A DNA stretch of 40,500 nucleotides, taken from the NCBI GenBank assembly GCA_017626555.1, contig JAGAIM010000218.1, positions 1 through 40,500 of the forward strand. Direction: 5' to 3'. The stretch is from Bacteroidales bacterium (GTDB taxonomy: Bacteria; Bacteroidota; Bacteroidia; Bacteroidales; UBA932). Below the pieces are notes generated by a model. That model searched no databases. It was given only the letters and a program-made list of their open reading frames with translations, and had not been told where the DNA came from. Position 1 is the first letter of the stretch, and the number at the start of each line of letters is the position of its first letter. Shown here piece after piece: positions 5,539 through 33,214 of this stretch. The translations under genes and the position numbers were made by a program.

Positions 5539-5598
5539 CGTATATCACATTGCAATTCTATAAATATTTTAAAAATATGCAGATAATTTTAAATTTAT

Positions 5599-5629: not shown

Positions 5630-5630
5630 C

Positions 5631-5650
5631 ACTGTGGTGTACTGTGGTTT
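5631..5650 (+). repeat. Tandem decamer at the pilus transcription start
   Basis: ACTGTGGTGT and ACTGTGGTTT are two consecutive 10-bp units beginning 2 nt after the -7 box. The same tandem decamer occurs at the equivalent place in the ROK kinase promoter (17483-17502). Function is unknown; its position suggests a role in the initially transcribed region or as a regulator site. Confidence 0.6.
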
Positions 5651-5694
5651 GGCATACACCGCATCCAACACTAAAACTTTTGTGTTTCACTAAT

Positions 5695-6282: not shown

Positions 6283-6295
6283 ATTTACGTATGGT

Positions 6296-7723: not shown

Positions 7724-7782
7724 GCAGATAAAACCAAAACAAATATAACTAATTATTTATTAACATCTTAAAACAAATTTTT

Positions 7783-9282: not shown

Positions 9283-9301
9283 TCTTCAACGATAAAGGAA
9301 A

Positions 9302-10348: not shown

Positions 10349-10362
10349 CAACGGGCACGAAG

Positions 10363-12114: not shown

Positions 12115-12115
12115 A

Positions 12116-15426: not shown

Positions 15427-15428
15427 TT

Positions 15429-16481: not shown

Positions 16482-16483
16482 TT

Positions 16484-17428: not shown

Positions 17429-17471
17429 TAGCGTTGTAAATCATTTATTTTCAGATATTCGAAGTTTTGTC

Positions 17472-17502
17472 TATCTTTGCAAACTGTGGTGCAGTGTGGT
17501 GT
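17472..17502 (+). promoter_or_regulatory. ROK-GH2 operon promoter with tandem decamer
   Basis: TATCTTTG (17472-17479) fits the -7 consensus; the -33 region is T-rich (TTATTTTC) but lacks an exact TTTG. Just downstream, ACTGTGGTGC and AGTGTGGTGT (17483-17502) repeat the same decamer found at the pilus promoter, in the same register relative to the -7 box. Confidence 0.65.
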
Positions 17503-17539
17503 AAGAATATCTGCACGAATTCATTAAATCCGACATTTT

Positions 17540-18358: not shown

Positions 18359-18385
18359 ACATAAAACACTGGAAAACAATAAATT

Positions 18386-21007
18386 ATGAAGAAATCCCAC
18401 TACCCTGCCATTATGGCATCGCTAATGGTAATATGCTGCATAGCCGGCACCATTTCATTGACCCTCATCCGCAATGCAGCACCTCAGGATGAAGACATCC
18501 AACTCAAGGATGGCTGGTACATCAAATCGTCTGCAGCAACTGATCTCGACGGAGCAGCGCTTTCTACAGAAGGCACTAAATTCGGTGAGGGCTGGTATAA
18601 GGCAAGCGTACCTTCGACCGTATTAGGAGCCTTGACTGCCGAGAACGGATTATATGCCGATGCCTTCTGCGCCAAGAATTATGCAGAAATCGACAGAGAG
18701 CAGTTTGATACAACCTGGTGGTACAGAACATCCTTCGATGTACCTGCTCTGAAGGAAGGTCAGCGCGCCGAACTTGCATTTGATGGTCTGAGTTATCGTG
18801 CAGATGTATGGCTCAACGGCCGGCAGATTGCCTCGGCAGATGAGTTCTTCGGCCCGTTCCGTCAGTTTGCTTTTGATGTTACTGATGTGCTGGAAGAAAG
18901 AAATAATCTTGCTGTACGCGTATATCGTTGGCAGAAGGGAGAATTCAACATTGGTTTCGTTGACTGGAATCCTCGCCCAGCAGATGAAAGTATGGGTATT
19001 TTCCGTCCTGTATGGCTGAAATACAGTGATGCCGTGTCCCTCAAGAATCCTGCTGTGCGTGCAAAAGTAGATACTGTTGACTTCGATGAGGCGTGGCTGA
19101 CAGTGGAAGCGACTCTTTGCAATGCTTCCGACAAGCCTGTGTCAGGTAAACTCTGCGGAAAGTTTGAGAACGGAAGATTCGAATTCCCTGTTGAACTTGC
19201 TGCAAATGAGACAAGAACTGTCAAGGTTACAGCAGAAGATGCCAAGAAACTCAGAGTAAAGAATCCTCGCCTATGGTGGTGTCATAATCTTGGCACTCCG
19301 GAAATGTACGCTATGGACATTTCTTTTGAGAGCGACGGAAAGGTGTCTGATTCTCAGAGAGTTGACTTCGGTATCCGCCATCTCGACTCATATTTCAACG
19401 AAGATGGATACAGAGGCTTCATCCTCAACGGAAAGAAGGTACTGGTAAAGGGAGCAGGATGGACGGATGACATTTTCCTCCGCAATCCCGACTCAAGGAA
19501 CGAAATCGAGGTGGCATACGTCAAGGATATGAATATGAACACCATACGATTTGAGAATGTATGGGGAACTTCCCAGAATATTTATGATATCTGCGACCGC
19601 GAAGGAGTGCTCGCCCTTGTGGGATGGAGTTGCCACTGGGAGTGGGAAGTATATACAGGAAAACCTAATGACCGATTCGGATGTATTTCCACTGAAGAGG
19701 ACATCGACCTTATTTCCGAGTCCTGGAGAGACCAGATACTCTGGCTCCGCAACCACCCTTCGATAATCTGCTGGTACGGAGCGAGCGATATGCTTCCTCG
19801 TCCTGCATTGGAAGAGAAATATCTTGAGATCCTCGCAGAAATCGACGACCGCCCATATACTGTTCACGCAGGTTCGGCAAAGAGCCCGGTCAGCGGTCCT
19901 GCCGGTATGAAGATGTGGGGGCCTTACGAGTGGCAGGCACCATACTATTGGTATTCGGAGCAGGCCAAAGGAAATGCTGTCGGCTTCAACACCGAGATCG
20001 GAATCGGCGCACAGATGCCTGTATATGAATCACTTGTCAAATTCATTCCTGAGGATCAACTCTGGCCTGTAGGAGAAGTCTATGACTATCATACTACAAC
20101 TTCAAGGGATGCCCTCCACGACCTCAGCGAACTTAAGACCGTCATTGAAAAGCGTCACGGAGGTGCCTCAGACCTTCAGGATTTCCTCCGCAAGGCTCAT
20201 TTCATCGACTACGAAGGAACGAGGGCTATGATAGAGGCGCACCGTGTGAATGTTCCAAGGTCAACAGGTGTGATCCAGTGGATGCTCAATTCAGCCTGGC
20301 CTTCACTCTACTGGCAGATGTACGACTGGTATCTTGTGCCGACTTCTGCATACTGGTCAGTGAAGAAGGGATGTGCCCCTCAGCAATTGATATACAACTA
20401 TGGCAACGATAAGATCTATGCCGTGAACGACGAAAGAGCCGATGTGGATCTCAAAGCGGCAATGAAGGTCTATGGACTTGACGGTGAGGTGCTTATAGAT
20501 GCCCAATGCGAGGTGGAAATGCCTATGGGATGCTCCAAGCCTGTATTTGATGTGATGTCCATCGCGGGCGGAGAGAGTCCAGTGAAATTTGTATTCCTGA
20601 CTCTCGAAGATGCTTCCGGAAAAGTAGTTTCCCGCAACGAATATGTACTCGCCGATGTAATGGACAAGCACGACTGGAGCAAATACAGATGGTGGAGGAC
20701 TCAGTTGGAGAGTTATGCTGACTTCTCTGCACTCAACGATCTTGCCCCTGCCGATGTAGAGGCATCACTTGTCAAGACTGCAGAAGGCCTTGAGGTAACT
20801 CTTGAGAACAAATCTTCAGTAGTGGCATTCTTCATAAGGCTCGCCCTCAAGGATGCAGCCGGTGAATACATCGTACCGGCATACTGGAACGACAACCTCG
20901 TCACTCTCCAGCCAGGCCAGAGCCTCACACTCACCTGCAAAGCCGAAGTTCCGGAAGGAGCGACAGTGACAGTCAGCGGCTGGAATGTTGCAGAATCCAT
21001 CCTCTAA
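18386..21007 (+). CDS. GH2 exo-beta-D-glucosaminidase-like glycosidase
   Basis: An 873-residue exported GH2 enzyme with an N-terminal hydrophobic signal (~10-30). Order: sugar-binding jelly roll (~40-215; FDGLSYRADVWLNGRQIA), immunoglobulin-like domain (~220-335), TIM barrel (~340-620), then C-terminal beta domains. In the usual GH2 acid/base motif the catalytic Glu is replaced by Asp: IICWYGASDML, Asp468. The predicted nucleophile is Glu537 in GFNTEIGIG. An Asp acid/base is a known property of the exo-glucosaminidase (CsxA-like) branch of GH2, which releases GlcN from chitosan oligosaccharides, whereas beta-mannosidases and galactosidases use Glu. Another GH2 specificity is possible. It shares a transcription unit with the ROK kinase. 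Confidence 0.8.
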   Translation: MKKSHYPAIMASLMVICCIAGTISLTLIRNAAPQDEDIQLKDGWYIKSSAATDLDGAALSTEGTKFGEGWYKASVPSTVLGALTAENGLYADAFCAKNYAEIDREQFDTTWWYRTSFDVPALKEGQRAELAFDGLSYRADVWLNGRQIASADEFFGPFRQFAFDVTDVLEERNNLAVRVYRWQKGEFNIGFVDWNPRPADESMGIFRPVWLKYSDAVSLKNPAVRAKVDTVDFDEAWLTVEATLCNASDKPVSGKLCGKFENGRFEFPVELAANETRTVKVTAEDAKKLRVKNPRLWWCHNLGTPEMYAMDISFESDGKVSDSQRVDFGIRHLDSYFNEDGYRGFILNGKKVLVKGAGWTDDIFLRNPDSRNEIEVAYVKDMNMNTIRFENVWGTSQNIYDICDREGVLALVGWSCHWEWEVYTGKPNDRFGCISTEEDIDLISESWRDQILWLRNHPSIICWYGASDMLPRPALEEKYLEILAEIDDRPYTVHAGSAKSPVSGPAGMKMWGPYEWQAPYYWYSEQAKGNAVGFNTEIGIGAQMPVYESLVKFIPEDQLWPVGEVYDYHTTTSRDALHDLSELKTVIEKRHGGASDLQDFLRKAHFIDYEGTRAMIEAHRVNVPRSTGVIQWMLNSAWPSLYWQMYDWYLVPTSAYWSVKKGCAPQQLIYNYGNDKIYAVNDERADVDLKAAMKVYGLDGEVLIDAQCEVEMPMGCSKPVFDVMSIAGGESPVKFVFLTLEDASGKVVSRNEYVLADVMDKHDWSKYRWWRTQLESYADFSALNDLAPADVEASLVKTAEGLEVTLENKSSVVAFFIRLALKDAAGEYIVPAYWNDNLVTLQPGQSLTLTCKAEVPEGATVTVSGWNVAESIL

Positions 21008-21042
21008 AGCCGTCAGCATACAACTGATTGACATTCAGCGCA

Positions 21043-21088
21043 ATACAAAAGCCTCGTGCTCCCTCCTGGCGGCACGAGGCTTTTGTAT
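21043..21088. terminator. Bidirectional terminator between convergent genes, with REP-like core
   Basis: ATACAAAAGCCTCGTGC (21043-21059) and GCACGAGGCTTTTGTAT (21072-21088) are a perfect 17-bp inverted repeat around a 12-nt loop. TTTT on either side of the stem lets it stop transcription from both the GH2 gene (+) and the flippase gene (-). The core CGTGC-N12-GCACG and its loop resemble the REP-like elements at 31606 and 31855. Confidence 0.9.
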
Positions 21089-21103
21089 ATCTCTGGTTTT
21101 CAA

Positions 21104-22606
21104 CTATTTACGCTCTGACGATTTTCGGATGATGGCCCAGACTGCGGCGAAGTAGGCGACGATGAGAGCAGTGTGGAGCCCTAATTTGGCAACGATCTGA
21201 CCTGATGAGGCAGTGCTGATGTCAAACCCGGTGAAAAGGGCGTTGTCTATGAGGAGCGATGTTCCGTAGGCGACGCCCATTGCTATGAATATGCACAGCA
21301 GACGGCTCCAGCGGTATGGAATCGGGTAGTATTTCGCTCCGAGGATGGAACTGATGGCAAACATAACGATATAACTTGCCAAATGGCCGAATGCTGCCGC
21401 CCAATACGAATATTCTGGCATAAAGATGATGATCACCAGAGCGGTTACGGCCAGGCCGGAAAGGGTGATCCAGATGGCCATATCGGTCTTGCCGGAGAGT
21501 TTGTACCACATAGATACGTTGAAAAGCATACCAAGTATCATATATGACAGAAGCATAATAGGAACGATACCTACTGCGGTACGGAACTGTGGTCCGAGAA
21601 TGAGCGCGATGATGTCGATGTATAGTATCACTCCAAGGAATACTAGGCCGCAGAATGCTGTAAAATACTCTTGTACAGAAGCATACAACTGGCGGGAATC
21701 CTTTTCACGTGCTCTTCTGAAAAAGAAAGGCTCGGCGGCATAGCGGAACATCTGGATGAAAAGATTCATTATTACTGCCAGTTTGACAGCGGCTTGATAA
21801 AGGCCGAGACTCGAGCGCCAGGCATCGGCATTTGTATCGAAAAATCTGAACAATATTCTGTCCAGAAAATCATTCACCACACCAGGCAGAGCCGCAACCA
21901 TAAGAGGAAGGGAGTAGGCCAGCATCTGACGTAGAAGTTTCGGATCGAGTCTGAAACTGATACGCGCAAGATCGGGTATGAAAAGCAGACCGCAGACGAT
22001 GCAACTGATGAATATGGCGAATATCACATAACTGAAGTCCGGAGTCTCAGGTATGAAGTGCAGAAGCCATCGTGCAGAATCCACATTCTTCGGGAACCAC
22101 AGGAACAGAAACAGATTGGCGACCGTCTCGGTAATGATCTTTATGGTCTTTAATACCGCGAATTTCAATGCCTTGTTCTCCTGACGTAGTCTTGCAAACA
22201 ATATGGCCGTGACAGCATCCAGTGCCAAGATCCCGCCCATATACATAATGCATACCCCATATCCGTCATAGCCTAACATTGATGCGATCGGTGAGGCAAA
22301 AGCAATCATCAAGGCCAGGAATGTGGCACTTACGCAGAAGACTGTGACGAAAGCACTGGAATAAACCTTCTTCGGATCGACACCTTCTTTGTTTGCAAAG
22401 CGGAAACATCCCGTCTCAAGCCCCATAACCAGAACTACCTGAAGGACAGCAATGTACGCCATAAATTCAGTTACGACACCATAACTCTCAGGAGTAAGTA
22501 GTCTGGTGTAGATCGGAACAAAGAGAAAGTTTATTATACGCGCAAGGATGGTGCTCAGACCATAAATGACAGTCTGCCCTGCCAATTGTTTCAACGGATT
22601 TGCCAT
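21104..22606 (-). CDS. Polysaccharide/lipid-linked oligosaccharide flippase (MATE-like, Wzx-type)
   Basis: A 500-residue protein with about 14 hydrophobic membrane segments. The N-terminus (LKQLAGQTVIYGLSTILARIINFLFVPIYTRLL) and ESYGVVTEFMAYIAVLQVVLVMGLETGCFRF match the polysaccharide biosynthesis flippase family of the MOP superfamily. It should move an undecaprenyl- or lipid-linked glycan across the inner membrane for LPS, capsule or glycoprotein synthesis. It stands alone, with no glycosyltransferases nearby, so its cargo cannot be deduced. Its -7 box (22615-22622) is only 8 nt before the ATG, suggesting a nearly leaderless message. The gene converges on the GH2 gene. Confidence 0.85.
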   Translation of the reverse strand: MANPLKQLAGQTVIYGLSTILARIINFLFVPIYTRLLTPESYGVVTEFMAYIAVLQVVLVMGLETGCFRFANKEGVDPKKVYSSAFVTVFCVSATFLALMIAFASPIASMLGYDGYGVCIMYMGGILALDAVTAILFARLRQENKALKFAVLKTIKIITETVANLFLFLWFPKNVDSARWLLHFIPETPDFSYVIFAIFISCIVCGLLFIPDLARISFRLDPKLLRQMLAYSLPLMVAALPGVVNDFLDRILFRFFDTNADAWRSSLGLYQAAVKLAVIMNLFIQMFRYAAEPFFFRRAREKDSRQLYASVQEYFTAFCGLVFLGVILYIDIIALILGPQFRTAVGIVPIMLLSYMILGMLFNVSMWYKLSGKTDMAIWITLSGLAVTALVIIIFMPEYSYWAAAFGHLASYIVMFAISSILGAKYYPIPYRWSRLLCIFIAMGVAYGTSLLIDNALFTGFDISTASSGQIVAKLGLHTALIVAYFAAVWAIIRKSSERK

Positions 22607-22614
22607 AATGAGGG

Positions 22615-22632
22615 CAAAAATAGTTATTTTTG
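22615..22632. promoter_or_regulatory. Divergent promoter pair, flippase / cyclophilin
   Basis: The minus strand has TATTTTTG at 22615-22622 and the plus strand has TATTTTTG at 22625-22632, so two -7 boxes lie almost touching and face opposite directions. A TTTG at 22599-22602 could be the -33 of the plus promoter, with a slightly long 22-nt spacer. The minus promoter would give an RNA starting within a few bases of the flippase ATG. Confidence 0.6.
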
Positions 22633-22653
22633 TCGGGTTAAACGAAAACGATT

Positions 22654-23364
22654 ATGAAAAGAATAATGATTCTGGCGGCTTTCGCCATTCTCGCGGCATC
22701 CTGCGGCCCAAGAGCAGGCAAGAATGCAGAAGCAGAGGCTCAGGCCGACAGCACAGCAACAAAACTCACAGAAATGGAACAGAAGAGAATCGAAGAGCCT
22801 GAGTTCGACATCATCACGAGCAAAGGTACAATGAGAGTGAAACTCTACAGCAAGACCCCTAAGCACAGGGACAACTTTGTCAAACTTGTCAAGGAGAAAT
22901 TTTATGACGGAGTGCGTTTCCACAGGGTTATAGAAGGTTTTATGATCCAGACTGGAGACCCTTACTCAAGAGACACTGCAAAGATTGATCTCTGGGGACA
23001 GGGAGGACCAGACTATACTGTGCCTGCAGAGTTCGTAAACGAATATTGGCATAAGAAGGGAGCCCTTGCTGCAGCACGTCGCGGCGATATGGCCAATCCT
23101 ACCAAGGCTTCTTCCGGATCGCAGTTCTATATCGTACACGACGAGAATGCCTGCCTGCATCTGGACGGTCAGTATTCCATCTTCGGAGAAGTCACTGAGG
23201 GTCTGGAGGTTATAGATAAGATCGCTGCAGTGGATGTGGACCGGTATGATCGCCCGTACGAGGATGTATTCATTACTGAAATAAGGCCTGTATATGTAGA
23301 GCCTGTACAACCCGCTGCAGATTCAACAGCAGTAGAGCCAGCCGACACGACGAAAGCAGAATAA
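22654..23364 (+). CDS. Cyclophilin-type peptidyl-prolyl cis-trans isomerase, lipoprotein
   Basis: A 236-residue lipoprotein (lipobox AASC, Cys17) with a short charged linker and one cyclophilin domain (~50-210). FDIITSKGTMRVKLYSKTPKHRDNFVKL and FYDGVRFHRVIEGFMIQTGDP carry the canonical catalytic Arg of FHR and the Gln of MIQ, and SGSQFYIVHDE is the second conserved block. It speeds proline isomerisation during folding of exported proteins, probably in the periplasm facing the envelope. The tail (~215-236) is an acidic, Ala/Pro-rich low-complexity stretch. The HAD phosphatase starts 4 nt after its stop, so the two are cotranscribed. Confidence 0.92.
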   Translation: MKRIMILAAFAILAASCGPRAGKNAEAEAQADSTATKLTEMEQKRIEEPEFDIITSKGTMRVKLYSKTPKHRDNFVKLVKEKFYDGVRFHRVIEGFMIQTGDPYSRDTAKIDLWGQGGPDYTVPAEFVNEYWHKKGALAAARRGDMANPTKASSGSQFYIVHDENACLHLDGQYSIFGEVTEGLEVIDKIAAVDVDRYDRPYEDVFITEIRPVYVEPVQPAADSTAVEPADTTKAE

Positions 23365-23368
23365 GGAT

Positions 23369-24064
23369 ATGAGTCTCAAAGGGAAATTCAGATACATATT
23401 CTTCGATGCCGACGACACACTCTGGGAGAACGAAAGGTATTTCAGAGCGGCAGAGGCAAAGTTCATAGAACTTCTGGCCGATTACACTACTCCGGAAGGA
23501 GTACAGGATATGCTCTGGCGCAAGCAGGAGGATAATATCCCATTGTTCGGCTACGGTTCCAAAACATATATGATCGGTATGACGGATGCCGCATTGGAAC
23601 TGTGCGGAGGAACACTTCCGGAGCATATATATTACGGGATCAAGAAAATCATCACCGATCTGGCCTTCCACGAACTGGAGATAATAGACGGAGTGAAAGA
23701 AACCCTTGAAGCATTGCAGGAGCATTACGAACTGATCGTGGCAACCAAGGGAGACCTTCCGGAGCAGATGGGAAAATTCAGGACTTCCGGACTGGCACAT
23801 TATTTCCATCACTGCGAAGTAATGGAGAACAAGGATGAGAAGAACTGGATGGAAGTGGCGGCCAAACACAACCTCCGTCCCGAAGAAATCCTTATGATCG
23901 GCAACTCTGTAAAGTCAGATATAGCGCCGGTGGTCAGTCTGGGGGGCTGGGCTATCCACACGCCGCACGAAGTGGTCTGGGTACACGAAATGATGGATAT
24001 GCCTCAGAACGACCGGATCATCGAAGTAAAAAGCATAAGGGAGATCCTGGACTACCTGCTCTAA
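23369..24064 (+). CDS. HAD-superfamily hydrolase (phosphatase-like)
   Basis: A 231-residue cytoplasmic protein with the four HAD motifs: FFDADDTLW with the nucleophile Asp13 and acid/base Asp15, IVATKG as motif II (Thr), a Lys in the NKDEKNW region as motif III, and MIGNSVKSDIAPVVSLG as motif IV. An alpha-helical cap lies between motifs I and II (residues ~20-100), as in phosphoglycolate phosphatase and YjjG-like nucleotidases. It removes phosphate from a small metabolite; the substrate is not readable from sequence. It overlaps nothing, follows the cyclophilin gene by 4 nt, and is followed by a repeat-rich gap with a terminator. Confidence 0.88.
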   Translation: MSLKGKFRYIFFDADDTLWENERYFRAAEAKFIELLADYTTPEGVQDMLWRKQEDNIPLFGYGSKTYMIGMTDAALELCGGTLPEHIYYGIKKIITDLAFHELEIIDGVKETLEALQEHYELIVATKGDLPEQMGKFRTSGLAHYFHHCEVMENKDEKNWMEVAAKHNLRPEEILMIGNSVKSDIAPVVSLGGWAIHTPHEVVWVHEMMDMPQNDRIIEVKSIREILDYLL

Positions 24065-24070
24065 AGTGCA

Positions 24071-24147
24071 TTTTTTGCCATTCCGAACAATTTTTGTCAT
24101 TTTCGAGCAGTTTTTATCATTCCGAGCGAAGTCGAGGAATCTTCTGG
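24071..24147 (+). repeat. Degenerate 20-bp tandem repeats running into a CCGAGCGAAGTCGAGGAATC element
   Basis: Three consecutive 20-nt units (24071-24090, 24091-24110, 24111-24130) each begin with a T-run and carry a form of YCATTCCGAGCR. The last runs into a longer motif ending GTCGAGGAATCTTCTGG, in which ATTCC and GGAAT can pair. Similar intergenic sequences are, from memory, scattered through many Bacteroidetes genomes. No coding function is seen. Confidence 0.6.
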
Positions 24148-24214
24148 CACAGAATTCGCTATAAACTTAAACCGAATAGTTTTTTCATAGGTTAAGTTTT
24201 AGGTTAGAATTGCG

Positions 24215-24251
24215 GCGGCCTTCCGATGTGAATCGGGAGGCCGCTATCTTT
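24215..24251 (+). terminator. Terminator hairpin after the HAD phosphatase
   Basis: GCGGCCTTCCGAT (24215-24227) pairs with ATCGGGAGGCCGC (24232-24244) over 13 bp with one G-U pair and a GTGA tetraloop, followed by TATCTTT. It lies between the HAD gene and the promoter of the prenyltransferase gene. Confidence 0.8.
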
Positions 24252-24301
24252 ATGCACAATGTCCCTTGAAAGGGCAATATTGTCCTGAAAGATAAAATCA
24301 T

Positions 24302-24309
24302 TATATTTG
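24302..24309 (+). promoter_or_regulatory. -7 element for the prenyltransferase gene
   Basis: TATATTTG matches the -7 consensus and lies 20 nt before the ATG at 24329, which predicts a very short leader (~14 nt). No Shine-Dalgarno sequence is present; the leader is A-rich, which is common in Bacteroidetes. Confidence 0.6.
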
Positions 24310-24328
24310 TAAAAAATAAGTGAACAAT

Positions 24329-25219
24329 ATGAAGAAACATTCTTTCGGCGAGTGGATGATTGCTGTCAGACCTTGGTCTTTTCCGGCATCCGCTATGCCT
24401 GTAATTGCCTCTATTGCCTACCTTTTCTGGAAAGGAGCCCAGATCAACTGGCTTTTCGGTCTGTGGGCGCTGATCAATATCATTATATTCCACGCTGCAG
24501 GCAACACCTGGAGCGATTATTTCGACTTCAAGAAGAAAGTTGACGCTGATGACACATTCGGAGCAAAAACTCTGACTACCGGTATGTTCAGCGAAAAAGA
24601 GATTTTCCGTCTCTCACTTTCCCTTACTGTAGTTGCAACGCTTGCCGGACTTGCACTGATGGCACTGACCGGACTCCCGCTTCTGTGGATCGGACTCGGA
24701 GGAGTATTATGTACACTCCTATACCCTATGCTGAAATACAATGCCTTAGGTGACCTGGTCATCCTGATGGCATACGCTTTCCTCCCTACCATCGGAACAT
24801 CATTCGTCACAACAGGAGCAATCGACTGGAGCGTACTTCTGATAGCCCTTCCCGTAGGACTCATCACCGACGGCATCCTTCATTCAAACAACACCCGCGA
24901 CACTATCACCGACCGTCGCGCCGGCATTAAGACAATGGCTATGGGATTGGGTCACAAGGCTTCTGCCATATTGTACGGATTCGAGGTCATTTTCCCATTC
25001 GTATGGATAGGAGTTCTCTCCATTATGGGTCTGATGCCTCTTACCACCATCGCTATATTCCTAACCCTTGCAGTTGCCATCGGATGTGCAAAGACTATGA
25101 TGCACTCGCTGGAAGGAGGCTCGGGTGTAATAGCCGATCTGGACGTAAGGACAGCAAACCTTCAGTTGATGTTCTCAGCCCTGCTGACGCTTGCATTCAT
25201 TGTCGCCAAATTCATCTAA
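24329..25219 (+). CDS. UbiA-family prenyltransferase (MenA-like)
   Basis: A 296-residue integral membrane enzyme with about eight or nine membrane segments. It carries both Asp-rich UbiA motifs: NTWSDYFDFKKKVDADD, which binds the prenyl diphosphate through Mg2+, and NNTRDTITDRRAG, the second DxxxD motif. The family attaches an isoprenoid chain to an aromatic acceptor. In Bacteroidales the main member is MenA, which prenylates 1,4-dihydroxy-2-naphthoate in menaquinone synthesis, but no men genes lie nearby, so another acceptor cannot be excluded. An in-frame GTG at 24320 is possible; the ATG at 24329 gives the natural MKKHSFGEWMIAVRPW start. The CPBP gene follows 4 nt after the stop. Confidence 0.85.
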   Translation: MKKHSFGEWMIAVRPWSFPASAMPVIASIAYLFWKGAQINWLFGLWALINIIIFHAAGNTWSDYFDFKKKVDADDTFGAKTLTTGMFSEKEIFRLSLSLTVVATLAGLALMALTGLPLLWIGLGGVLCTLLYPMLKYNALGDLVILMAYAFLPTIGTSFVTTGAIDWSVLLIALPVGLITDGILHSNNTRDTITDRRAGIKTMAMGLGHKASAILYGFEVIFPFVWIGVLSIMGLMPLTTIAIFLTLAVAIGCAKTMMHSLEGGSGVIADLDVRTANLQLMFSALLTLAFIVAKFI

Positions 25220-25223
25220 GCAA

Positions 25224-25862
25224 ATGAATTCCAACAATATATCACTAAGGAAACCGGTCGTCGGCATCTGCCTGGCGGCCGTTCTTTGGACTATAATGTT
25301 CTCTCCCTGGACCGCGCCTCACGTAAATTTCTGGGTGATGATGACCTGCTCGGGAGCGACCCTGACATTCTTCACATTCTGGGCACGGCCGCAGTGGTGG
25401 AAGGATGTGCAGTTTGACCTGAGCAACATTCTGCTGGGCATAGGACTGGCTGCTGTCTTATGGGGAATATTCTGGCTCGGAGAATTCTTCTCCACCCTGC
25501 TCTTCGACTTTGCCAGACCTCAGGTGGACAGCATTTATGGTATGAAGGACGGTGAAAATCCGTGGGTGTTGAGCCTGCTGATGCTGTTCATTATCGGACC
25601 TGCAGAGGAGATTTTCTGGAGAGGATGTATCCAGAACCGTCTTTCAGCACGCTGGAATCCCAACATCGGCTTCATAGTGACAACGCTGGTCTATGGCCTG
25701 GTACATCTGTCGAAATTCAACTTTATGCTGATTATGGCAGCGATGGTGGCCGGCTTTGTATGGGGACTTGCCTATCGTTTCTTCCCTGAAAAATTCGGCG
25801 CAATAATCCTTTCGCACGCCTTGTGGGACTGCGCCGTCTTCATCTGGTTCCCGATAATGTAG
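25224..25862 (+). CDS. CPBP-family intramembrane metalloprotease (Abi/CAAX-like)
   Basis: A 212-residue membrane protein with the CPBP (Rce1-like) motifs: GPAEEIFWRG with the catalytic pair Glu128-Glu129 and Arg133, VYGLVHLSKFNF with the first metal-site His, and LSHALWD with the second. About six hydrophobic segments are predicted. Family members are glutamate-type intramembrane proteases; in bacteria they act in peptide maturation, self-immunity or as uncharacterised housekeeping proteins. No bacteriocin or RiPP genes are near, and pairing with a prenyltransferase recalls CAAX processing only in name. The ATG at 25224, 4 nt after the previous stop, replaces an upstream start that would overlap the previous gene. 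Confidence 0.85.
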   Translation: MNSNNISLRKPVVGICLAAVLWTIMFSPWTAPHVNFWVMMTCSGATLTFFTFWARPQWWKDVQFDLSNILLGIGLAAVLWGIFWLGEFFSTLLFDFARPQVDSIYGMKDGENPWVLSLLMLFIIGPAEEIFWRGCIQNRLSARWNPNIGFIVTTLVYGLVHLSKFNFMLIMAAMVAGFVWGLAYRFFPEKFGAIILSHALWDCAVFIWFPIM

Positions 25863-25890
25863 TCACACAAACACCTGTTATTCAACAACT

Positions 25891-25934
25891 TACATCAAAT
25901 GCCTGCTGCAGATATGCAGCAGGCATTTGATGTA
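25891..25934. terminator. 20-bp perfect hairpin between convergent genes
   Basis: TACATCAAATGCCTGCTGCA (25891-25910) and its exact complement (25915-25934) are separated by the tetraloop GATA. The hairpin lies between the CPBP gene (+) and the nucleoside kinase (-). It lacks a clear U-tract on either side, so termination is likely from position but not certain. Confidence 0.65.
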
Positions 25935-25961
25935 ACTGACTATTGTTCAGCAGATTAGGTG

Positions 25962-27665
25962 TCACAGCATTTGGCCATCAATGAATTCTCTCAAAATGGA
26001 TGTAGGAGGAATCGCTGCCATCTCTGCTGGAGTCAGTGCGACGATATAATCCAGGAACTTCAGCATCCTGGACGCCTCGGTATATGCCGGAGATGACGGA
26101 GATATACGACGCAGGAGCGGCTCGGCATAATATTTCAGCACCGGAAGTTCAAAGATATGAGCCGAATTGAACACGGCGTCGGCATTTTCCTGATACGGAA
26201 ATATATTGCGGTTTTCTCCCCTCCTGACACTCTGCCACATTGTAATAGTATTCTCCGGAACTATTCCCCTGGTACGGTTGTCACGTATCATTCGACGGAG
26301 CATACGGTTATCAGATGTAGAGATATTGTTGTTCTCGTCTATTGAAAGAGAAGTCAGCGCCGAAGCATATACACGGAAGACCTTCGAATTATCTACATCG
26401 GGAATCATAGCCGGATTAAGGGCGTGGATACCTTCCATTATCAGAATATCCTTCTCGTGCAGACTCATAAAATTCCCCTCAAAATATTTCCGGCCTTCCT
26501 TGAAGTCGAAACGCGGTATTTCCACCTCCTGACCGGCAAGAAGATCGTTCAGTTGCTGTCCAAGCAGTTTGAGATCCATCGCTCCGAGGCACTCGAAATC
26601 ATATTCACCATTCTCATCCTTAGGGGTCAACTCTCTATCAACGAAATAGTTATCAAGTTCGATAACTTTAGGGTTCAAACCTAAAATACGGCATTGAAGA
26701 GCCAGACGCTTGGAAGTGGAAGTCTTTCCACTGCTGGAAGGCCCCGCTATGAACACGATCTTCACAGAGCCGCGACGGGCATATATCTGGTCTGCTATAT
26801 CTGCATATTTCCTCTCGTGAAGAGCCTCTGAAAGATTGATGAGATCGATAATCTCACCTGAAAGAACCTTTTTATTGAGCGTACCAACCCCCTTAACACC
26901 CATAACAGAACACCAATCCGAATGTTCCTTCAGGGCGGTCGCAAGTTTCGACTGACGCTTCATTGGAAGTACCTTGCCGAAATCTCCATCCATCGGATAC
27001 TGCAGACAGAACCCGTTGTTGAATCCTATTATATTGAACGTCTTGAGGCATCCGGTCGAGGGTGCCAGAGGCCCATAAAACGTATCAGCCTGACCATCAA
27101 GAAAATACACATTATAATTAAATCTGCCTATGGTCTTTAAAAGATTGACCTTTTCTGTCTGGCCATTATGAGTAAACAAAGCCTCGCATTCTTTCAGACT
27201 GAGCATCTTCTTACCGAAAGGCTGGTCGGCATCTATAAGGGACTGCATCTTGTCCTCTATGGTCTGGAGTTCATCATCCGTCACAAAAAACACTTTAGGA
27301 CGGCCATCTTCCATAGGCTCGGCCTCACGGATCTCGCAATACAGTCCGCTAGGAAGAGAGTAGTCTATTGCCAGGACCTTGGCCGGATACATATCTCTCA
27401 CCACCTTTTGAAGGACAAAGCAAAGAGAACGGATGTAAGTGCGCCTTCCATCCGGATGATCGTAGCCGACAAATCTCACATTATGTGGATTGATCACCTT
27501 GTAATCCAATGACTTGAGTTTATTGTCAACCAGTGCCGCCAGCAAAGGATTCTCATCATTGAACTCCAGTCCGCCAAGTGTCCGGGACACCTCTTTAAGG
27601 GTTATTCCCATAGGGACACTCATATAAGACTGAGAATTTTCACAATAGATTCTGATATCTTCCAT
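25962..27665 (-). CDS. Nucleoside (uridine-type) kinase with N-terminal TGS-like domain
   Basis: A 567-residue cytoplasmic protein. The N-terminal ~60 residues (IRIYCENSQSYMSVPMGITLKEV) look like a TGS domain, followed by a ThrRS second-additional-domain-like region (~65-200). The C-terminal half is a phosphoribulokinase/uridine kinase domain: Walker A GPSSSGKTSTSKR with Lys314, then IELDNYFVDRE and LIMEGIHALNP. This fusion of tRNA-synthetase-like modules to a uridine kinase is standard in Bacteroidales 'nucleoside kinase' proteins, which phosphorylate uridine/cytidine with ATP or GTP. It starts one base after the uvrA stop codon and is surely cotranscribed and translationally coupled. Confidence 0.88.
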   Translation of the reverse strand: MEDIRIYCENSQSYMSVPMGITLKEVSRTLGGLEFNDENPLLAALVDNKLKSLDYKVINPHNVRFVGYDHPDGRRTYIRSLCFVLQKVVRDMYPAKVLAIDYSLPSGLYCEIREAEPMEDGRPKVFFVTDDELQTIEDKMQSLIDADQPFGKKMLSLKECEALFTHNGQTEKVNLLKTIGRFNYNVYFLDGQADTFYGPLAPSTGCLKTFNIIGFNNGFCLQYPMDGDFGKVLPMKRQSKLATALKEHSDWCSVMGVKGVGTLNKKVLSGEIIDLINLSEALHERKYADIADQIYARRGSVKIVFIAGPSSSGKTSTSKRLALQCRILGLNPKVIELDNYFVDRELTPKDENGEYDFECLGAMDLKLLGQQLNDLLAGQEVEIPRFDFKEGRKYFEGNFMSLHEKDILIMEGIHALNPAMIPDVDNSKVFRVYASALTSLSIDENNNISTSDNRMLRRMIRDNRTRGIVPENTITMWQSVRRGENRNIFPYQENADAVFNSAHIFELPVLKYYAEPLLRRISPSSPAYTEASRMLKFLDYIVALTPAEMAAIPPTSILREFIDGQML

Positions 27666-27666
27666 A

Positions 27667-30438
27667 TCACAAAGAAGTCTGATTCATTAATATTTCCCTA
27701 AGAAATGGCCCTGTCACGGATGCAGGATCTTCTGCAAGGCGCTCCGGAGTACCTTCCGCCACTATCAGACCGCCCTTCTTTCCGCCCTCAGGTCCCATAT
27801 CAAACAAATAATCAACAGATTTGAGGACATCCAGATTATGCTCGATTATGATGACTGTATTTCCTTGCTCCACAAGTTGCTGAAGCACATCCAACAGCAC
27901 CTTGATATCATCAAAATGCAGACCGGTGGTCGGCTCATCCAGGATGTAAAGAGTATTTCCGGTGCCCTTGCGCGCCAATTCTGCCGCAAGTTTCATTCTC
28001 TGGCTTTCTCCTCCTGAAAGCGTGACAGCAGACTGACCAAGCCGCACATATCCAAGGCCGACATCTACAAGTGTCTTCAATTTAGGGGCGATGGTAGGAA
28101 TATTCCTGAAGAAATCGTATGCCTCGCTTATCGACATTTCAAGCACGTCATTTATGTTCTTGCCTTTATATTTTACGGCAAGCGTGTCATTCTTATATCT
28201 ACGCCCGCGACACTCACTGCACACTACATTCACGGATGGGAGGAAGTTCATCTCGATGACCTTGATGCCCGCTCCCTTGCACTCTTCACAACGTCCTCCT
28301 GCGACATTGAATGAGAATCTGCCGGCCTTGAAGCCACGCACCTTCGCATCCGGTGTAGCCTCGAAAAGATTCCTTATATCATTGAACACTCCGGTGAACG
28401 TGGCCGGATTGCTGCGCGGCGTACGTCCTATTGGGCTTTGGTCTATCTCGATCAGTTTGTCTATATTTTCGATACCTACAATACTGTCGTACGGCAGGGG
28501 CTGCATCTTTGCATTGTAGAACTTGTTCTTGAGCACAGGCATCAGGGTTTCATTGATCAGGGACGATTTGCCGCTTCCGCTCACTCCGGCGACACCGATG
28601 AGCATTCCCAACGGGAAATCGACATCGACATTCTTCAGATTGTTGCCTCTGGCACCGCGGATCCCCAAAGTCAATCCGTTGCCTTTTCTACGCTCAGCGG
28701 GCACCTCAATGCTCTTGCGGCCGAGAAGATAATCAAGAGTGGTGGAATTCCCCTCTGCTATCCCTTCCAATGTACCGTTATAGCATATTCTTCCGCCTTC
28801 TTCACCGGCTCCCGGCCCCACATCCACCAGCCAGTCTGCCGACATCATAGTCTCGGCATCGTGTTCCACCACCATCACAGAATTACCCTCGTCGCGAAGT
28901 TTCTTGAGCGATGCTATCAATTTACGATTATCGCGCTGATGCAGGCCTATGGATGGCTCGTCCAGAATGTAAAGGACATTGACCAGTTTAGAGCCTATCT
29001 GTGTCACAAGCCTGATTCTCTGACTCTCTCCTCCTGATAATGAGGAAGTTGCACGATCGAGCGAAAGATAGTCCAGTCCTACATCAAGAAGGAAGGACAC
29101 TCTGTCCTTCAGTTCCTTAAGAATATCACGGGCAATGATGCTTTCCCTGTTACCGAACACTCTGTCGAGAGCACGCAGCCAACTGTCAAGTTGGCCTATC
29201 TCCATCGCTGCGACCTCCGATATAGTCTTTCCATCTATCTTGAAATACGTGGTCTCCTTGTTGAGTCTCGTACCGCCACATACAGGACATACGACCTTTT
29301 CGTGTATATCGCCGACAATGCCGGAGAATGAAACCATTTCTGAAGAGGCACCTTCTCCCACTCGGAAAAGTTCATCCGAACCGAATACAATCAGGGAAAT
29401 GACTTCATCCGGCAACTCATCTATCGGATCGTAAAGAGAAAAATTATATTTACGTGCTATCGACCTTATTACATCGAATTTCTTTGTCTCACGGATCTTG
29501 CCCAAAGGCACGATTCCTCCGTCTGCTATGGAAACAGAGCGATCAGGAATGATAGTATCCATATTCACATCGACTATGATTCCAAGTCCCTTGCAATGAG
29601 GACAATAGCCCTGTGGTGAATTGAATGAGAAGGAATGCGGAGCCGGTTCGGCAAGAGAGATTCCAGTATCCGGGCATACGAGATGCTTGGAGAAATGATG
29701 CACTTCCTGTGTCTCCATATCCATTATTGCCAACGATCCCTTACCGAAATTCAAAGCAGACACCACTGATGACTTTATACGCTTTTCATCCTTCTGAGTC
29801 GGTTTCAGACGATCAATGACCAATTCTATGAAATGAGCCTTGTAGCGATCCAATGCCGTCACTTCCGTCAAGTCGAAAAGTTCTCCATCGATACGTACCT
29901 GGGTATATCCCCTCTTGCGCATCTGCTCCAGAAGTTCCTTATAATGACCTTTGCGTCCCTTCACCACCGGAGCAAGAAGATAGCATTTACGATCATTATA
30001 GTTCTCCATTATCAGGGAAACAATCTGCTCGTCCGTATATCTCACCATCGGCTTGCCTGTCTGAGGGGAATATGCAGTGGAAGCCCTCGCATAAAGAAGT
30101 CGGAGGAAATCATATATTTCGGTTATAGTGCCGACGGTGGAGCGAGGATTGTTACCAGTGGTCTTCTGCTCTATCGCAATGATGGGACTAAGGCCCGTAA
30201 TAGACTCGACCTCAGGCTTCTCCAATATACCCATAAAATGCTTGGCGTATGTCGAAAGCGTATCCATATACCGTCTCTGTCCCTCTGCATATATAGTGTC
30301 GAATGCAAGAGACGACTTGCCGCTTCCGCTCAGGCCGGTCACCACTACGAACTTGCCACGCGGTATCGCCAGCGAGGCTCCTTTCAGGTTGTGAGCCTTT
30401 GCTCCCTGAATCTCAATATAATCGTTCTTTTTCTCCAT
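27667..30438 (-). CDS. uvrA: Excinuclease ABC subunit A (UvrA)
   Basis: A 923-residue DNA damage-recognition ATPase of nucleotide excision repair, acting with UvrB and UvrC. Two ABC modules are present: Walker A GLSGSGKSS (~35-43) and GVSGSGKSS (~640), and two signature motifs LSGGESQRI and LSGGESQRM. Zinc-module cysteines appear in CPHCKGLG, CPVCGGTRL and CEECKGAGIKV...CSECRGRRY. EQKTTGNNPRSTVGT and GRTPRSNPATFTG are the conserved UvrA segments. Length is close to the usual ~940. Some Bacteroidetes encode two UvrA paralogues; which one this is cannot be told here. Confidence 0.95.
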   Translation of the reverse strand: MEKKNDYIEIQGAKAHNLKGASLAIPRGKFVVVTGLSGSGKSSLAFDTIYAEGQRRYMDTLSTYAKHFMGILEKPEVESITGLSPIIAIEQKTTGNNPRSTVGTITEIYDFLRLLYARASTAYSPQTGKPMVRYTDEQIVSLIMENYNDRKCYLLAPVVKGRKGHYKELLEQMRKRGYTQVRIDGELFDLTEVTALDRYKAHFIELVIDRLKPTQKDEKRIKSSVVSALNFGKGSLAIMDMETQEVHHFSKHLVCPDTGISLAEPAPHSFSFNSPQGYCPHCKGLGIIVDVNMDTIIPDRSVSIADGGIVPLGKIRETKKFDVIRSIARKYNFSLYDPIDELPDEVISLIVFGSDELFRVGEGASSEMVSFSGIVGDIHEKVVCPVCGGTRLNKETTYFKIDGKTISEVAAMEIGQLDSWLRALDRVFGNRESIIARDILKELKDRVSFLLDVGLDYLSLDRATSSLSGGESQRIRLVTQIGSKLVNVLYILDEPSIGLHQRDNRKLIASLKKLRDEGNSVMVVEHDAETMMSADWLVDVGPGAGEEGGRICYNGTLEGIAEGNSTTLDYLLGRKSIEVPAERRKGNGLTLGIRGARGNNLKNVDVDFPLGMLIGVAGVSGSGKSSLINETLMPVLKNKFYNAKMQPLPYDSIVGIENIDKLIEIDQSPIGRTPRSNPATFTGVFNDIRNLFEATPDAKVRGFKAGRFSFNVAGGRCEECKGAGIKVIEMNFLPSVNVVCSECRGRRYKNDTLAVKYKGKNINDVLEMSISEAYDFFRNIPTIAPKLKTLVDVGLGYVRLGQSAVTLSGGESQRMKLAAELARKGTGNTLYILDEPTTGLHFDDIKVLLDVLQQLVEQGNTVIIIEHNLDVLKSVDYLFDMGPEGGKKGGLIVAEGTPERLAEDPASVTGPFLREILMNQTSL

Positions 30439-30492
30439 ACTGTATCCGGATCAGCAATCCTGCTGCCAATTTCAGGCCACTGACCCATTTTA

Positions 30493-30500
30493 CAAATATA
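30493..30500 (-). promoter_or_regulatory. -7 element for uvrA
   Basis: The minus strand reads TATATTTG, 54 nt upstream of the uvrA ATG. A -33 TTTG at the standard distance is not evident. It would drive uvrA and the nucleoside kinase. Confidence 0.5.
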
Positions 30501-30566
30501 GCAATTTTTCCTCAAAACATTACAGAAAACACCAACTCCCTATCCATCAACCGTTTACATATTCCA

Positions 30567-30589
30567 CGTGCTCCCCCTTCCCCTGCACG
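30567..30589 (-). repeat. REP-like hairpin A (inverted relative to B and C)
   Basis: CGTGC (30567-30571) and GCACG (30585-30589) flank a 13-nt loop. Read on the minus strand the loop is AGGGGAAGGGGGA, ending GGGGGA-GCACG exactly as in element C, and the downstream bases (TGGAATATGTAA) align with the tail of C. It lies 31 nt beyond the RAYT stop codon. Confidence 0.7.
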
Positions 30590-30620
30590 CATATCGCATA
30601 ACACGCTATATATCAAAGAA

Positions 30621-31547
30621 TTACCCTCTGATATCAATGTGCAGGAATTTGCATATCTGTCTATCTGTAGCAGATGTAACCACCTTCAACTGCCGGAACA
30701 AGTCCATCTTCCTATCTTCCGGCCACATAATCAGCCTCCGCACAACCGCATCATCCATCGTACGGCGGCAATATGACAACATTTCACCATAGGCCTGGTC
30801 AGAGAATGCATTGAATTCCTCCCTCAGATCATATTCTCCTCCGGTATTGGAGTTAATCGCTGTCAACATACTATCGTATGAATCATAATATGCGACCAAG
30901 TCACTGTAATCAAATGGACAGTACCTGACTATAATATAATCGATCAATTCTTCCCACTGCTTGCTATCAAGGCTGTTACGCCATCTTTTAAGCGCAGGAT
31001 AATTGACCGGCTCACCTACACTGCACATCCAATCGACCTCTTTTCGGGCTCGTTTTAAAGCAACAGGCATTTTACGTGGAGCAGTTTTTCTGGAAAAAGG
31101 ATTAGTGTCATTGATATATGGCAGAAAACTCCACCTGAATTGCTCTGCCTTTACACACAGTTGTTTCTCGACCGGATTGTTGAAGAGATATGCTATAGCA
31201 GAATGTATCTTTTTCAGCCCCCATTTGGGAGCGCTTCCGAAATTCTTATGGAAAAGACGTCCTTTTCTGCCTATAGACTCGTTGAAGACACGGGCAAACC
31301 AGGACGTGCAATGATCCATAAAAGCGCTGATGGATTCCACCTTTTCTGAAATAAGCAAAGAGTGGAAATGATCATACATAAGGCATAATCCAAGCACCTT
31401 GACATCAGCAGCGGTTTTTGCACATACCGAAAAAATGGTATAAAATACCAGGCGATCTTCATCGCAATAAAAAAGGTTGAACCCATTATGAGCTCTCTGA
31501 TAGATGTGATTCGGGACATCTTTGTAAAATCTTCTCTTCTTTCTCAT
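30621..31547 (-). CDS. REP-associated tyrosine transposase (RAYT, Y1/TnpA_REP-like)
   Basis: A 308-residue protein related to the IS200/IS605-type Y1 transposases domesticated as RAYTs, which nick single-stranded REP hairpins. The metal-binding motif is His60-Phe61-His62 in LMYDHFHSLLIS (usually HUH in PNHVHLL), and Tyr120 in AIAYLFNNPVEKQL matches the catalytic Tyr of the family's YIHxNPV motif. RAYTs are often 150-250 residues; here ~150 extra C-terminal residues with a helical, basic segment (RRTMDDAVVRRLIMWPEDRK) end in what may be a helix-turn-helix. REP-like hairpins lie on both sides. The start at 31547 (MRKKRRFYKD) is chosen because the longer frame would run through hairpin B. Confidence 0.82.
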   Translation of the reverse strand: MRKKRRFYKDVPNHIYQRAHNGFNLFYCDEDRLVFYTIFSVCAKTAADVKVLGLCLMYDHFHSLLISEKVESISAFMDHCTSWFARVFNESIGRKGRLFHKNFGSAPKWGLKKIHSAIAYLFNNPVEKQLCVKAEQFRWSFLPYINDTNPFSRKTAPRKMPVALKRARKEVDWMCSVGEPVNYPALKRWRNSLDSKQWEELIDYIIVRYCPFDYSDLVAYYDSYDSMLTAINSNTGGEYDLREEFNAFSDQAYGEMLSYCRRTMDDAVVRRLIMWPEDRKMDLFRQLKVVTSATDRQICKFLHIDIRG

Positions 31548-31605
31548 ATCTCGACAAATTTTAGCAATGTCTATATCTTTGACTATCAACCTATTACCTC
31601 TTATC

Positions 31606-31655
31606 CGTGCCGTACCGGGTGAGGCACGCAGACGCAATAATCAATTGACAATCAG
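31606..31655 (+). repeat. REP-like element B
   Basis: CGTGC (31606-31610) and GCACG (31624-31628) flank a 13-nt loop CGTACCGGGTGAG, in which an extra C-G pair can form. The tail GCAGACGCAATAA leads into ATTGACAATCAG (31644-31655), a second small palindromic segment shared with element C. It lies 58 nt upstream of the RAYT start codon. Confidence 0.75.
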
Positions 31656-31854
31656 GAGGTTAAACTCCACCTTTGCGGTGATTTCCTCTGCACAAATCTA
31701 TCGGGAATACTAGAAACTCTATTTAAAAAAAAGAAAAATGTGGTGAATAAATTTTATGTTCTTGCAATTTATCCGGAAAAACTACTATTTTATAGTTGGG
31801 GCGAGCAAATGAGAGGAGGATAATACAGTGTGTATCAGCATATTACGCATTCTA
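31656..31854. other. Non-coding gap between REP-like elements B and C
   Basis: About 200 nt of AT-rich sequence with no supported reading frame. It holds two small hairpins (GGAG-GTTAAA-CTCC and CACC-TTTGC-GGTG near 31653-31680). A minus-strand TAGATTTG at 31693-31700 fits the -7 consensus and could drive the RAYT gene, in which case hairpin B would be inside its leader. Confidence 0.4.
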
Positions 31855-31904
31855 CGTGCCGCACTTGGGGGAGCACGCAGGAAACGTAACTGATTGCAGA
31901 TCAG
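31855..31904 (+). repeat. REP-like element C
   Basis: CGTGC (31855-31859) and GCACG (31873-31877) flank the 13-nt loop CGCACTTGGGGGA. The tail CAGGAAACGTAA runs into CTGATTGCAGATCAG (31890-31904), a small palindrome matching the tail of B. It lies 17 nt from the stop codon of the CoA-transferase gene. Confidence 0.75.
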
Positions 31905-31921
31905 GGCGATAGGGTCTGATA

Positions 31922-33214
31922 CTATTTCAGGCGCAGATAGGTATGGCCGAAACGGGCAGCGGCAGCACGGTCCAGTTCCTCACGGACGGAAGGATGGGCG
32001 ATATCGATAAGGGCACGGGCACGTTCGGCCAATGTCTTGCCACGAAGTTGAGCCACTCCATATTCTGTAACGATATTCTGGACGAAATGGCGTGTGGTCA
32101 CGACACCGGCTCCTTCGGTGAGTACCGGTTTGATTTTGGAGAGACCCTTTTCGGTGAGCGAAGGAATTGCGATGAAAGTCTTTCCACCCTCGGAGAGAGA
32201 GCCGCCGTACATAAAGTCGTGCTGTCCTCCCACACCGGATATTATGCGCGTGCCGACTGAATCGGCGCAGACCTGGCCGGTAAGATCGACTTCAACGGCA
32301 GAATTGATGGCCATCACCTTCGGATTCTGCGCTATGCGGAATGGATGGTTGGTCCAGGCAACATCCTTGAGCAGCAGATCTTTACGATAGTCCATAAAAT
32401 CATATAGCTTGCGGGATCCCAAGGCAAGTGAAGCAACGGAAATACCGGGAAGAATCTTCTTGCAGGAATTGTCGATAACTCCGCTTTCCAGAAGAGGGAG
32501 AACGCCATCAGTCATTGCCTCTGTGTGAAGCCCCAGATGCTGATGATCCTTCAGGGAAGCAAGCACAGCATTAGGAATGCCTCCCACCCCGATCTGAAGA
32601 GTGGCACCGTCGGGAATCATTTCCGCTATGTAGCGGCCTATGGCAGAATCAATCTCTGTCGGTACGGCTGTGGGCACTTCCACAAGAGGATCATCAACTT
32701 CGACAGCAGCATCGATTCTTGAAACGTGTATCAATGCGTCACCGTATGAAAACGGCATAGATTTATTAATCTGAACGATGACCTTACGAGCACACTCGGT
32801 CGCTGAAACGGCAAGGTCAGCAGAAACTCCGAAGGAGCAATAACCCTCGTCATTCGGTGGCGATACATTCAGGAATACGGCATCGAGCGGAAGAGTACCG
32901 TCTCGGAACAAGCCCGGAATCTCGCCCAGGAAAGCAGGAATCGTCGAGCCATAGCCTGCAGCAAGCCATTTACGGATATTATTGGCCACAAAGAGGCTCT
33001 TGACATTGAATGAATCCTTATACTCCGGCTTACAGTATGGAGCCTCAGAGCGCCCCACGGCAAAAGCGGCATATATGGTCACGTCGCGAAGTTCACCGCC
33101 TCTATCTGCAAGAGCCTGAGAAAGCACCTCCGGTATGGATGTACTTCCCTGGATATAGATGCTTTCACCGGAATTTATCAACTGTACGGCCTCGGCCGCT
33201 GTCATTATTTTCAT
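31922..33214 (-). CDS. Acetyl-CoA hydrolase/transferase family protein (CoA-transferase)
   Basis: A 430-residue cytoplasmic CoA-transferase of the acetyl-CoA hydrolase/4-hydroxybutyrate CoA-transferase family. It shows the two homologous alpha/beta domains, with VGGIPNAVL and LHTEAMTDGVLP; the Glu of HTEAMTDG (Glu232) is the expected catalytic residue that carries CoA as a thioester. GVGGQHDFMYGGSLSEGGKTFIA and VTEYGVAQLRGKTLAERA are the conserved C-terminal motifs. Likely reactions use acetate with butyryl-, 4-hydroxybutyryl- or succinyl-CoA, fitting an anaerobic fermenter, but the partner acid cannot be chosen from sequence. It follows the aminotransferase gene by 85 nt and may share its transcript. 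Confidence 0.88.
   Translation of the reverse strand: MKIMTAAEAVQLINSGESIYIQGSTSIPEVLSQALADRGGELRDVTIYAAFAVGRSEAPYCKPEYKDSFNVKSLFVANNIRKWLAAGYGSTIPAFLGEIPGLFRDGTLPLDAVFLNVSPPNDEGYCSFGVSADLAVSATECARKVIVQINKSMPFSYGDALIHVSRIDAAVEVDDPLVEVPTAVPTEIDSAIGRYIAEMIPDGATLQIGVGGIPNAVLASLKDHQHLGLHTEAMTDGVLPLLESGVIDNSCKKILPGISVASLALGSRKLYDFMDYRKDLLLKDVAWTNHPFRIAQNPKVMAINSAVEVDLTGQVCADSVGTRIISGVGGQHDFMYGGSLSEGGKTFIAIPSLTEKGLSKIKPVLTEGAGVVTTRHFVQNIVTEYGVAQLRGKTLAERARALIDIAHPSVREELDRAAAARFGHTYLRLK

Follow-up and report, generated by a model that had tools for sequence, protein, structure and literature searches.

Which DNA elements accompany the RAYT gene of a Bacteroidales bacterium (UBA932), and could the encoded transposase act on them? 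The window analysed here, that is the whole stretch of 40,500 nt (assembly GCA_017626555.1, contig JAGAIM010000218.1, positions 1 to 40,500; its genome is labelled G000), contains a RAYT gene surrounded by hairpins which a first-pass annotation had regarded as REP-like. We consider it probable that this is a REPtron-type locus, in which the RAYT is flanked by copies of a cognate, dispersed element of ~115 bp that is mobile, recognised through its hairpin and kept by the host at gene ends.

Three hairpins of the form CGTGC-N13-GCACG (A, B and C) have exactly the sequence and position given by the first-pass annotation, and hairpin C shares its ending GGGGGAGCACG with the minus-strand reading of A, as it had noted. 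A fourth hairpin with an N12 loop is located at 21055-21076; in the shuffled window CGTGC...GCACG hairpins occur with a mean of 0.11 and a maximum of 2. Throughout the genome CGTGC-N10-18-GCACG is found 38 times versus 10 times for the reversed pattern. By a loop rule and inspection 28 of the 38 hairpins were assigned to one family, with nine non-fitting hairpins and the N12 copy set aside. These 28 copies align gap-free over 119 columns, and since the conserved columns extend ~45 nt beyond the hairpin in either direction, the hairpin is the centre of a larger symmetric element. Its order is terminus, arm scaffold, central hairpin, arm scaffold, terminus, and its simplified consensus (family 1) reads GAGG.TAA-N5-TG-N5-CA-N5-TTA-N6-TcTA-[CGTGC-N13-GCACG]-cAG-N6-TAA-N5-TG-N5-CA-N5-TTA. 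The tail and second palindrome reported behind B and C do exist, but due to the fixed register of the conserved bases on both sides of the hairpin they represent the right-hand arm, while the matching left-hand arm was overlooked. A and C can be oriented by their asymmetric loop (CGCAC/GGGGA type), whereas the loop of B (CGTAC/GTGAG) gives no orientation. Since the whole element is near-symmetric, the proposed inverted pair of A versus B and C has little meaning and does not define the locus. The stop codon TAA of the RAYT gene is also the first scaffold TAA of element A, and element C extends to the stop codon of the neighbouring gene (open reading frame (ORF) 31922-33214, minus strand). Rfam gave no match for 30400-32000 at E up to 1.

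R1, a sequence-only profile built from the 28 family-1 copies, yielded 138 matches in the window genome when scanned at E up to 10. Because the symmetric element is matched on both strands, these were merged by hand to at least 70 sites (weakest site E 0.016 on the better strand), a lower bound as the best 150 of 924 candidates were scored. The 70 sites comprise 29 of family 1, 40 of family 2 and one of a further type. Family 2 has the same arm scaffold as family 1, together with the centre CCTGCTG...CAGCAGG (mismatched in one copy) and a terminus of the GTGGCRCG type. The window genome encodes two full-length RAYT homologues, which are 45% identical, and the second one, on C162, is flanked by family-2 elements in a layout matching that of family 1 around the window RAYT. 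In both cases one element lies just past the stop, one just before the start and one ~270-300 bp upstream. The five elements of the window are listed in the table; those at 21008..21123 and 25855..25970 each sit between two convergent stop codons. A third centre type (CCTCCTGCCGAC...GGGAGCAGGAG) was seen in a single G000 element (L082 1445-1550).

Features of the window, and spacers whose element family differs between orthologous sites (R1, family-1 profile; a dot marks elements without orientation)
Feature	Position	Strand	Evidence
RAYT / Y1 HUH transposase, 308 aa, D59-H60-F-H62, Y120-x-x-N-N-P	30621..31547	-	
Element A (family 1), just past RAYT	30520..30636, arms 30533-30623	-	R1 match E 9.3e-20
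Central hairpin of A, CGTGC-N13-GCACG	30567..30589	-	pattern
Element B (family 1), just upstream of RAYT ATG	31559..31675, arms 31572-31662	.	R1 match E 2.0e-16
Central hairpin of B	31606..31628	.	pattern
Element C (family 1)	31808..31924, arms 31821-31911	+	R1 match E 4.9e-23
Central hairpin of C	31855..31877	+	pattern
Family-1 element, N12 loop, long stem	21008..21123, arms 21021-21110	-	R1 match E 5.8e-10, DNA fold z -7.5
Family-2 element, centre ATGCCTGCTGC...GCAGCAGGCAT	25855..25970, arms 25868-25957	.	R1 match E 6.1e-7, DNA fold z -8.1
Family-differing orthologous spacers	L147/L079, L155/L074 (alignments whole), L152/L080 (alignment across element)		

The assignment of the window gene as a RAYT is supported by the predicted model of its protein (about 308-309 amino acids), which has a Y1 HUH fold most like TnpAREP (4er8 fold) and a long helical C-terminal part. 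The stop codon occupies 30621-30623, and alignment with the paralogue makes the ATG at 31547 the likely start. H60, H62, Y120, N123 and N124 are invariant in 36 aligned RAYT rows, an alignment that omits 7 of the 43 loci described below, and P125 is present in the window protein. It therefore has both the HuH motif and the class-2 tyrosine motif Y---NP which, in the class definition given in PMC6006769, characterise RAYT / TnpAREP. The window protein did not reach the cut-off of NCBIfam NF047646 (31.1 bits vs 80), a family matched by 35 of 36 relatives at E 1e-3 or better. Bac_DnaA_C, HTH_23 and HTH_28, the C-terminal HTH families of TIRYTs (subclass 2.1), were not among the Pfam families matched by the 36 members, the C-terminus not being searched alone. 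The RAYT is conserved (dN/dS 0.08), with 18% of its synonymous sites differing; the RAYT of the relative G061 is 96% identical to that of the window. We file the protein as RAYT and the locus as REPtron-like. The window RAYT (30624-31547) is 95.0% identical at the DNA level to the L103 copy, while the flanking ~6.9 kb are only 82.8% identical. G000 also contains three remoter RAYT-like ORFs (C92:14734-15195, C92:27694-27903 and C146:16277-16681); none of them has an adjacent element pair, and one family-1 copy lies ~1 kb from the ORF on C146.

The pairing of RAYT and element extends to other loci. We scanned 43 of them, namely 40 RAYT-like loci from other members of the sampled genus sequences, L103 and the two of the window genome. 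A strict scan for the scaffold with a palindromic centre identified 45 elements versus 0 in reversed sequences, and a looser one, covering up to 700 bp from each RAYT-like gene, 66 versus 13. By the looser scan at least one element is present at 35 of the 43 loci and elements on both sides at 25; no element was found within 700 bp at the remaining eight (L118, L130, L134, L136, L140-L143), of which L141-L143 are weak RAYT-like matches. At 24 of the 25 two-sided loci both sides share a centre word of at least 9 nt, whereas the median between different loci is 6 nt and 8.9% of pairs share at least 8. Therefore the scaffold is common, while each RAYT locus has a centre that is largely its own. 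At one locus of G005 (L124 2449-2805) three tandem elements with a 134-bp period stand behind the RAYT.

The elements prefer the ends of genes. According to simple ORF calls, 60 of the 70 sites overlap coding sequence by less than 35%, in agreement with the dispersed, mostly intergenic family that the first-pass annotation had expected. On the same calls, a stop codon lies within 25 nt of the edge, with its gene outside, at 51 of the 70 sites, and two such stops at 17, compared to 2.1% and 0.07% of random off-element windows from the same loci (one stop in 15% of windows with less than 35% coding). In 15 same-family elements that are orthologous between G000 and G061, 24 of 300 scaffold, 2 of 150 stem, 18 of 195 loop and 85 of 390 terminus positions changed, as against 125 of 450 in the arm spacers and 73 of 270 at the stem base; two badly registered pairs (65 and 69 of 117) were retained in these counts. 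Judged by the spacer change relative to the differing synonymous sites of the RAYT, drift in the arm spacers seems to be free and the scaffold to be constrained, a contrast whose size is an upper estimate since site finding favours conserved positions. Three further orthologous spacers, among the alignments listed, carry family 1 in G061 and family 2 in G000, and different families thus occupy the same spacer. A stretch of ~15.8 kb (window 5488-21290), which by eye holds surface lipoprotein/fimbrillin-like ORFs, a ROK-type kinase and a glycosidase, has no counterpart at the syntenic position in G061, which has 187 bp there instead. Because the N12 element lies at the right edge of this stretch, it offers no clean empty site in G061. 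Synteny with the G061 contig ends beyond window position 34673.

Among relatives, where at most 59 candidates were scored per genome, R1 detected elements like those of family 1 in 10 of 61 genomes, each of them a member of the genus of the window genome. At least 25 matches were obtained in five relatives, which are also the five with the best RAYT scores, so that family abundance follows the closest RAYTs, in line with the first-pass annotation. A scaffold pattern with up to 3 mismatches and a gap of 40 only (gaps between 37 and 42 occur among the elements) gave 262 forward matches versus 3 control matches in 37 genomes of the genus, and 20 versus 19 in 24 genomes outside it. At least five matches were present in 12 of the 22 genomes that encode a full-length RAYT (E < 1e-40, the window genome included) versus 1 of 15 without (Fisher p 0.004, for a sample that is not independent since the genomes are related). 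In a family-wide sample 35 of 149 genomes matched the RAYT profile at 1e-15 or better. Scaffold elements with a palindromic centre (at most 2 mismatches) also occur in other genera with RAYT matches, for example seven in G135 and eight in G169.

Concerning structure, the element centre folds far beyond shuffles (mean z -6.1, 60 of 66 below -2). In relative G030, whose elements have a different centre, the stem covaries (score 0.204 vs 0.135, a value that none of 500 shuffles reached); the number of pairs with both sides changed was equalled in 21 and that of further pair types in 109 of 500 shuffles. Double stem changes between orthologues number 10 versus 6.5 expected if independent, and 5 of the 10 retain pairing, which is suggestive at most. 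The arms show no covariation, and the two-hairpin REP postulated by the first-pass annotation is not supported, its second motif being one arm of the symmetric element. A long rod-shaped or clover-leaf arm fold was rejected: variable arm positions pair in 33.6% versus 33.2% for re-paired arms, and single-family pair counts equal those of shuffles. The termini, tested on 36 elements selected on arms only, are complementary across families (226 of 468 vs a re-paired mean of 147 and a maximum of 188 in 500 shuffles) but show no covariation inside the family of G030. Complementarity also links the conserved words TAA/TTA and TG(A)/(T)CA with each other, which would suit a short guide-target pairing of the IS608 type. 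Both arms of the G030 family (A4) often bear TGATACACA in one direction, a direct rather than inverted likeness, and in G030 two elements at a distance of ~1.4 kb enclose an ORF that is Fic-like by eye (L186 1501-1590, G030:C66:10457-10546).

We propose that, once the region is single-stranded, the central hairpin would fold and be recognised by the HUH/tyrosine domain. The RAYT may then nick and rejoin near short conserved words (TAA/TTA, TGA/TCA) in the unpaired arms, by which the element would be copied or moved to other gene-end spacers. Each RAYT lineage would act on its own hairpin-and-terminus family, the scaffold being common to all, and an element would be retained at a gene end for a benefit that it confers there, in all likelihood as a hairpin at the mRNA 3' end. 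Mobilisation by this RAYT, which the first-pass annotation had assumed, is an inference here too.

Several observations weigh against a REPtron-type locus with a mobile, host-kept element. The limited comparison of the window and a few loci with G061 revealed no clean occupied/empty site and no excision, and the constraint test covers only sites found by pattern or profile in both genomes. A palindromic centre was among the criteria by which the 66 folded elements were picked, in a scan that gave 13 matches in reversed sequences, and the window copies fold weakly as DNA (z -2.1 for A, -1.2 for B and -2.1 for C). Covariation of the family-1 stem is weak or absent, depending on the measure: its score was reached in 35 and its count of pairs changed on both sides in 484 of 500 shuffles. 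The GT[AG]G guide, which canonical REPs have within 0-2 nt 5' of the hairpin, is lacking in front of it in all 28 copies of the alignment. Co-divergence of RAYT and centre was not found over the 32 loci sampled (RAYT identity vs centre similarity, Mantel rho 0.096, reached in 68 of 999 permutations). The first-pass annotation had held that hairpins absent elsewhere in the genome, or equally common in relatives without the RAYT, would not be its REP family. The outcome is mixed: the family is present elsewhere and scaffold elements are commoner together with a RAYT, yet the 40-nt gap pattern matches just 0 to 2 times in 10 of the 22 genomes of the genus that encode a RAYT, G157 of the same genus has nine RAYT matches and one such element, and G113 has a single palindrome-centred element and no RAYT match. 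G030 (97% complete, 5% contamination) even contains 44 elements with no RAYT detected by the 36-member profile at E up to 0.1; Pfam gave no Y1 transposase there beyond two weak matches, one of them gyrase/topoisomerase-A-like by eye. REPINs are described in PMC8049555 as persisting in E. coli genomes without RAYT.

The elements could instead be mainly gene-end sites of the host, acting as double-stranded protein sites or mRNA 3'-end elements, with the RAYT as an old source or passenger that no longer moves them. The conserved words in fixed register within arms that lack pairing, the constraint at orthologous loci, the 51 sites abutting a stop codon and the RAYT-free G030 are consistent with this. 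However, element pairs with a common centre frame the RAYT at nearly all two-sided loci, the gene is maintained at a low dN/dS and families differ at three orthologous spacers, for which reasons we regard this explanation as unlikely. Intrinsic transcription terminators that work in both directions and arrived at a similar plan by convergence would account for the 17 sites between two close stops and for the long perfect stems of some copies. A terminator scan of 20500-32500, however, flagged none of the five elements and showed no excess (11 vs a shuffle mean of 10.2), a common unpaired scaffold is unnecessary for termination, and the RAYT pairing would be unexplained; termination as the main identity was therefore rejected as highly improbable. 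The least probable explanation is that A and C are the terminal elements of a complete transposon, of either the TIRtron or the IS200/IS605 kind, which carries the RAYT. The similar layout in which elements flank each of the two RAYTs of the genome speaks for it, and the differences from both kinds are given below.

A REPtron-type locus remains our preferred explanation, and we tentatively add an idea that may well prove wrong. The elements might be host-kept gene-end elements of Bacteroidales in which the unpaired scaffold serves as an address and the exchangeable hairpins and termini as family tags, so that RAYTs would swap families at the same stop-codon spacers rather than transpose freely. 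Bacteroidales RAYTs, whose repeats are called only 'atypical' in the relevant part of PMC6006769, gain a concrete candidate for their substrate, and one whose code can be tested. This candidate code rests on the 25 two-sided RAYT loci (35 with at least one element), with one scaffold and differing hairpins and termini. Mobility and host benefit, which are mixed in REPIN biology, become separable because orthologous sites allow constraint to be measured and the elements persist in one relative in which no enzyme was detected.

How does this locus compare to known systems? IS200/IS605 elements (IS608, ISDra2) work with a hairpin plus short guide and target words, which also serve as our working model. 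The predicted window protein shares their core fold but is about twice as long, and the window genome has no multicopy, near-identical tnpA, only the two diverged full-length homologues. By eye, tnpB was not recognised among the window ORFs, no search aimed at it being made. TIRYTs and their TIRtrons (mostly subclass 2.1) are likewise long RAYT relatives with inverted-repeat flanks, of which some are dispersed and self-complementary; they differ by the TIR motif GGGGWSAS, by NHVH or NH[YF]H and YIELNP or Y[IV]HLNP, and no common scaffold appears in the passages on TIRtrons (PMC3733652, PMC6006769). TnpAREP subclass 2.6, which equals RAYT group 5 of the Bacteroidetes, is described as having flanking 'atypical secondary structures' without GT[AG]G, with copies of the structure elsewhere in the genome as in our case (PMC6006769). 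In the text of that paper its NH[LIV]H, WQ and YIH[QN]NP motifs and median length of 179 aa set it apart from the window protein (DHFH, Y120-LF-NNP, 308 aa), while overlap in element sequence is possible. No title or abstract opening that we found describes the present element plan. As in RAYT/TnpAREP systems with REP, BIME or REPIN, a 4er8-fold Y1 HUH enzyme adjoins its own family of dispersed, mostly intergenic hairpin elements (as far as described in PMC3116915, PMC8049555, PMC8266576, PMC3733652), families differ per enzyme and elements can outlast it (PMC8049555). In contrast to a REPIN, in which two conserved inverted end REPs enclose a variable spacer, here the centre is conserved and the arms are mostly variable, and a hairpin-forming unit is found at the centre only. 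The arms instead provide an unpaired scaffold common to all families, and the enzyme of ~309 aa has a long helical C-terminal part in its predicted model. The repeat thus lacks both the GTAG guide of canonical REPs and the conserved ends of REPINs, and is built to a different plan.
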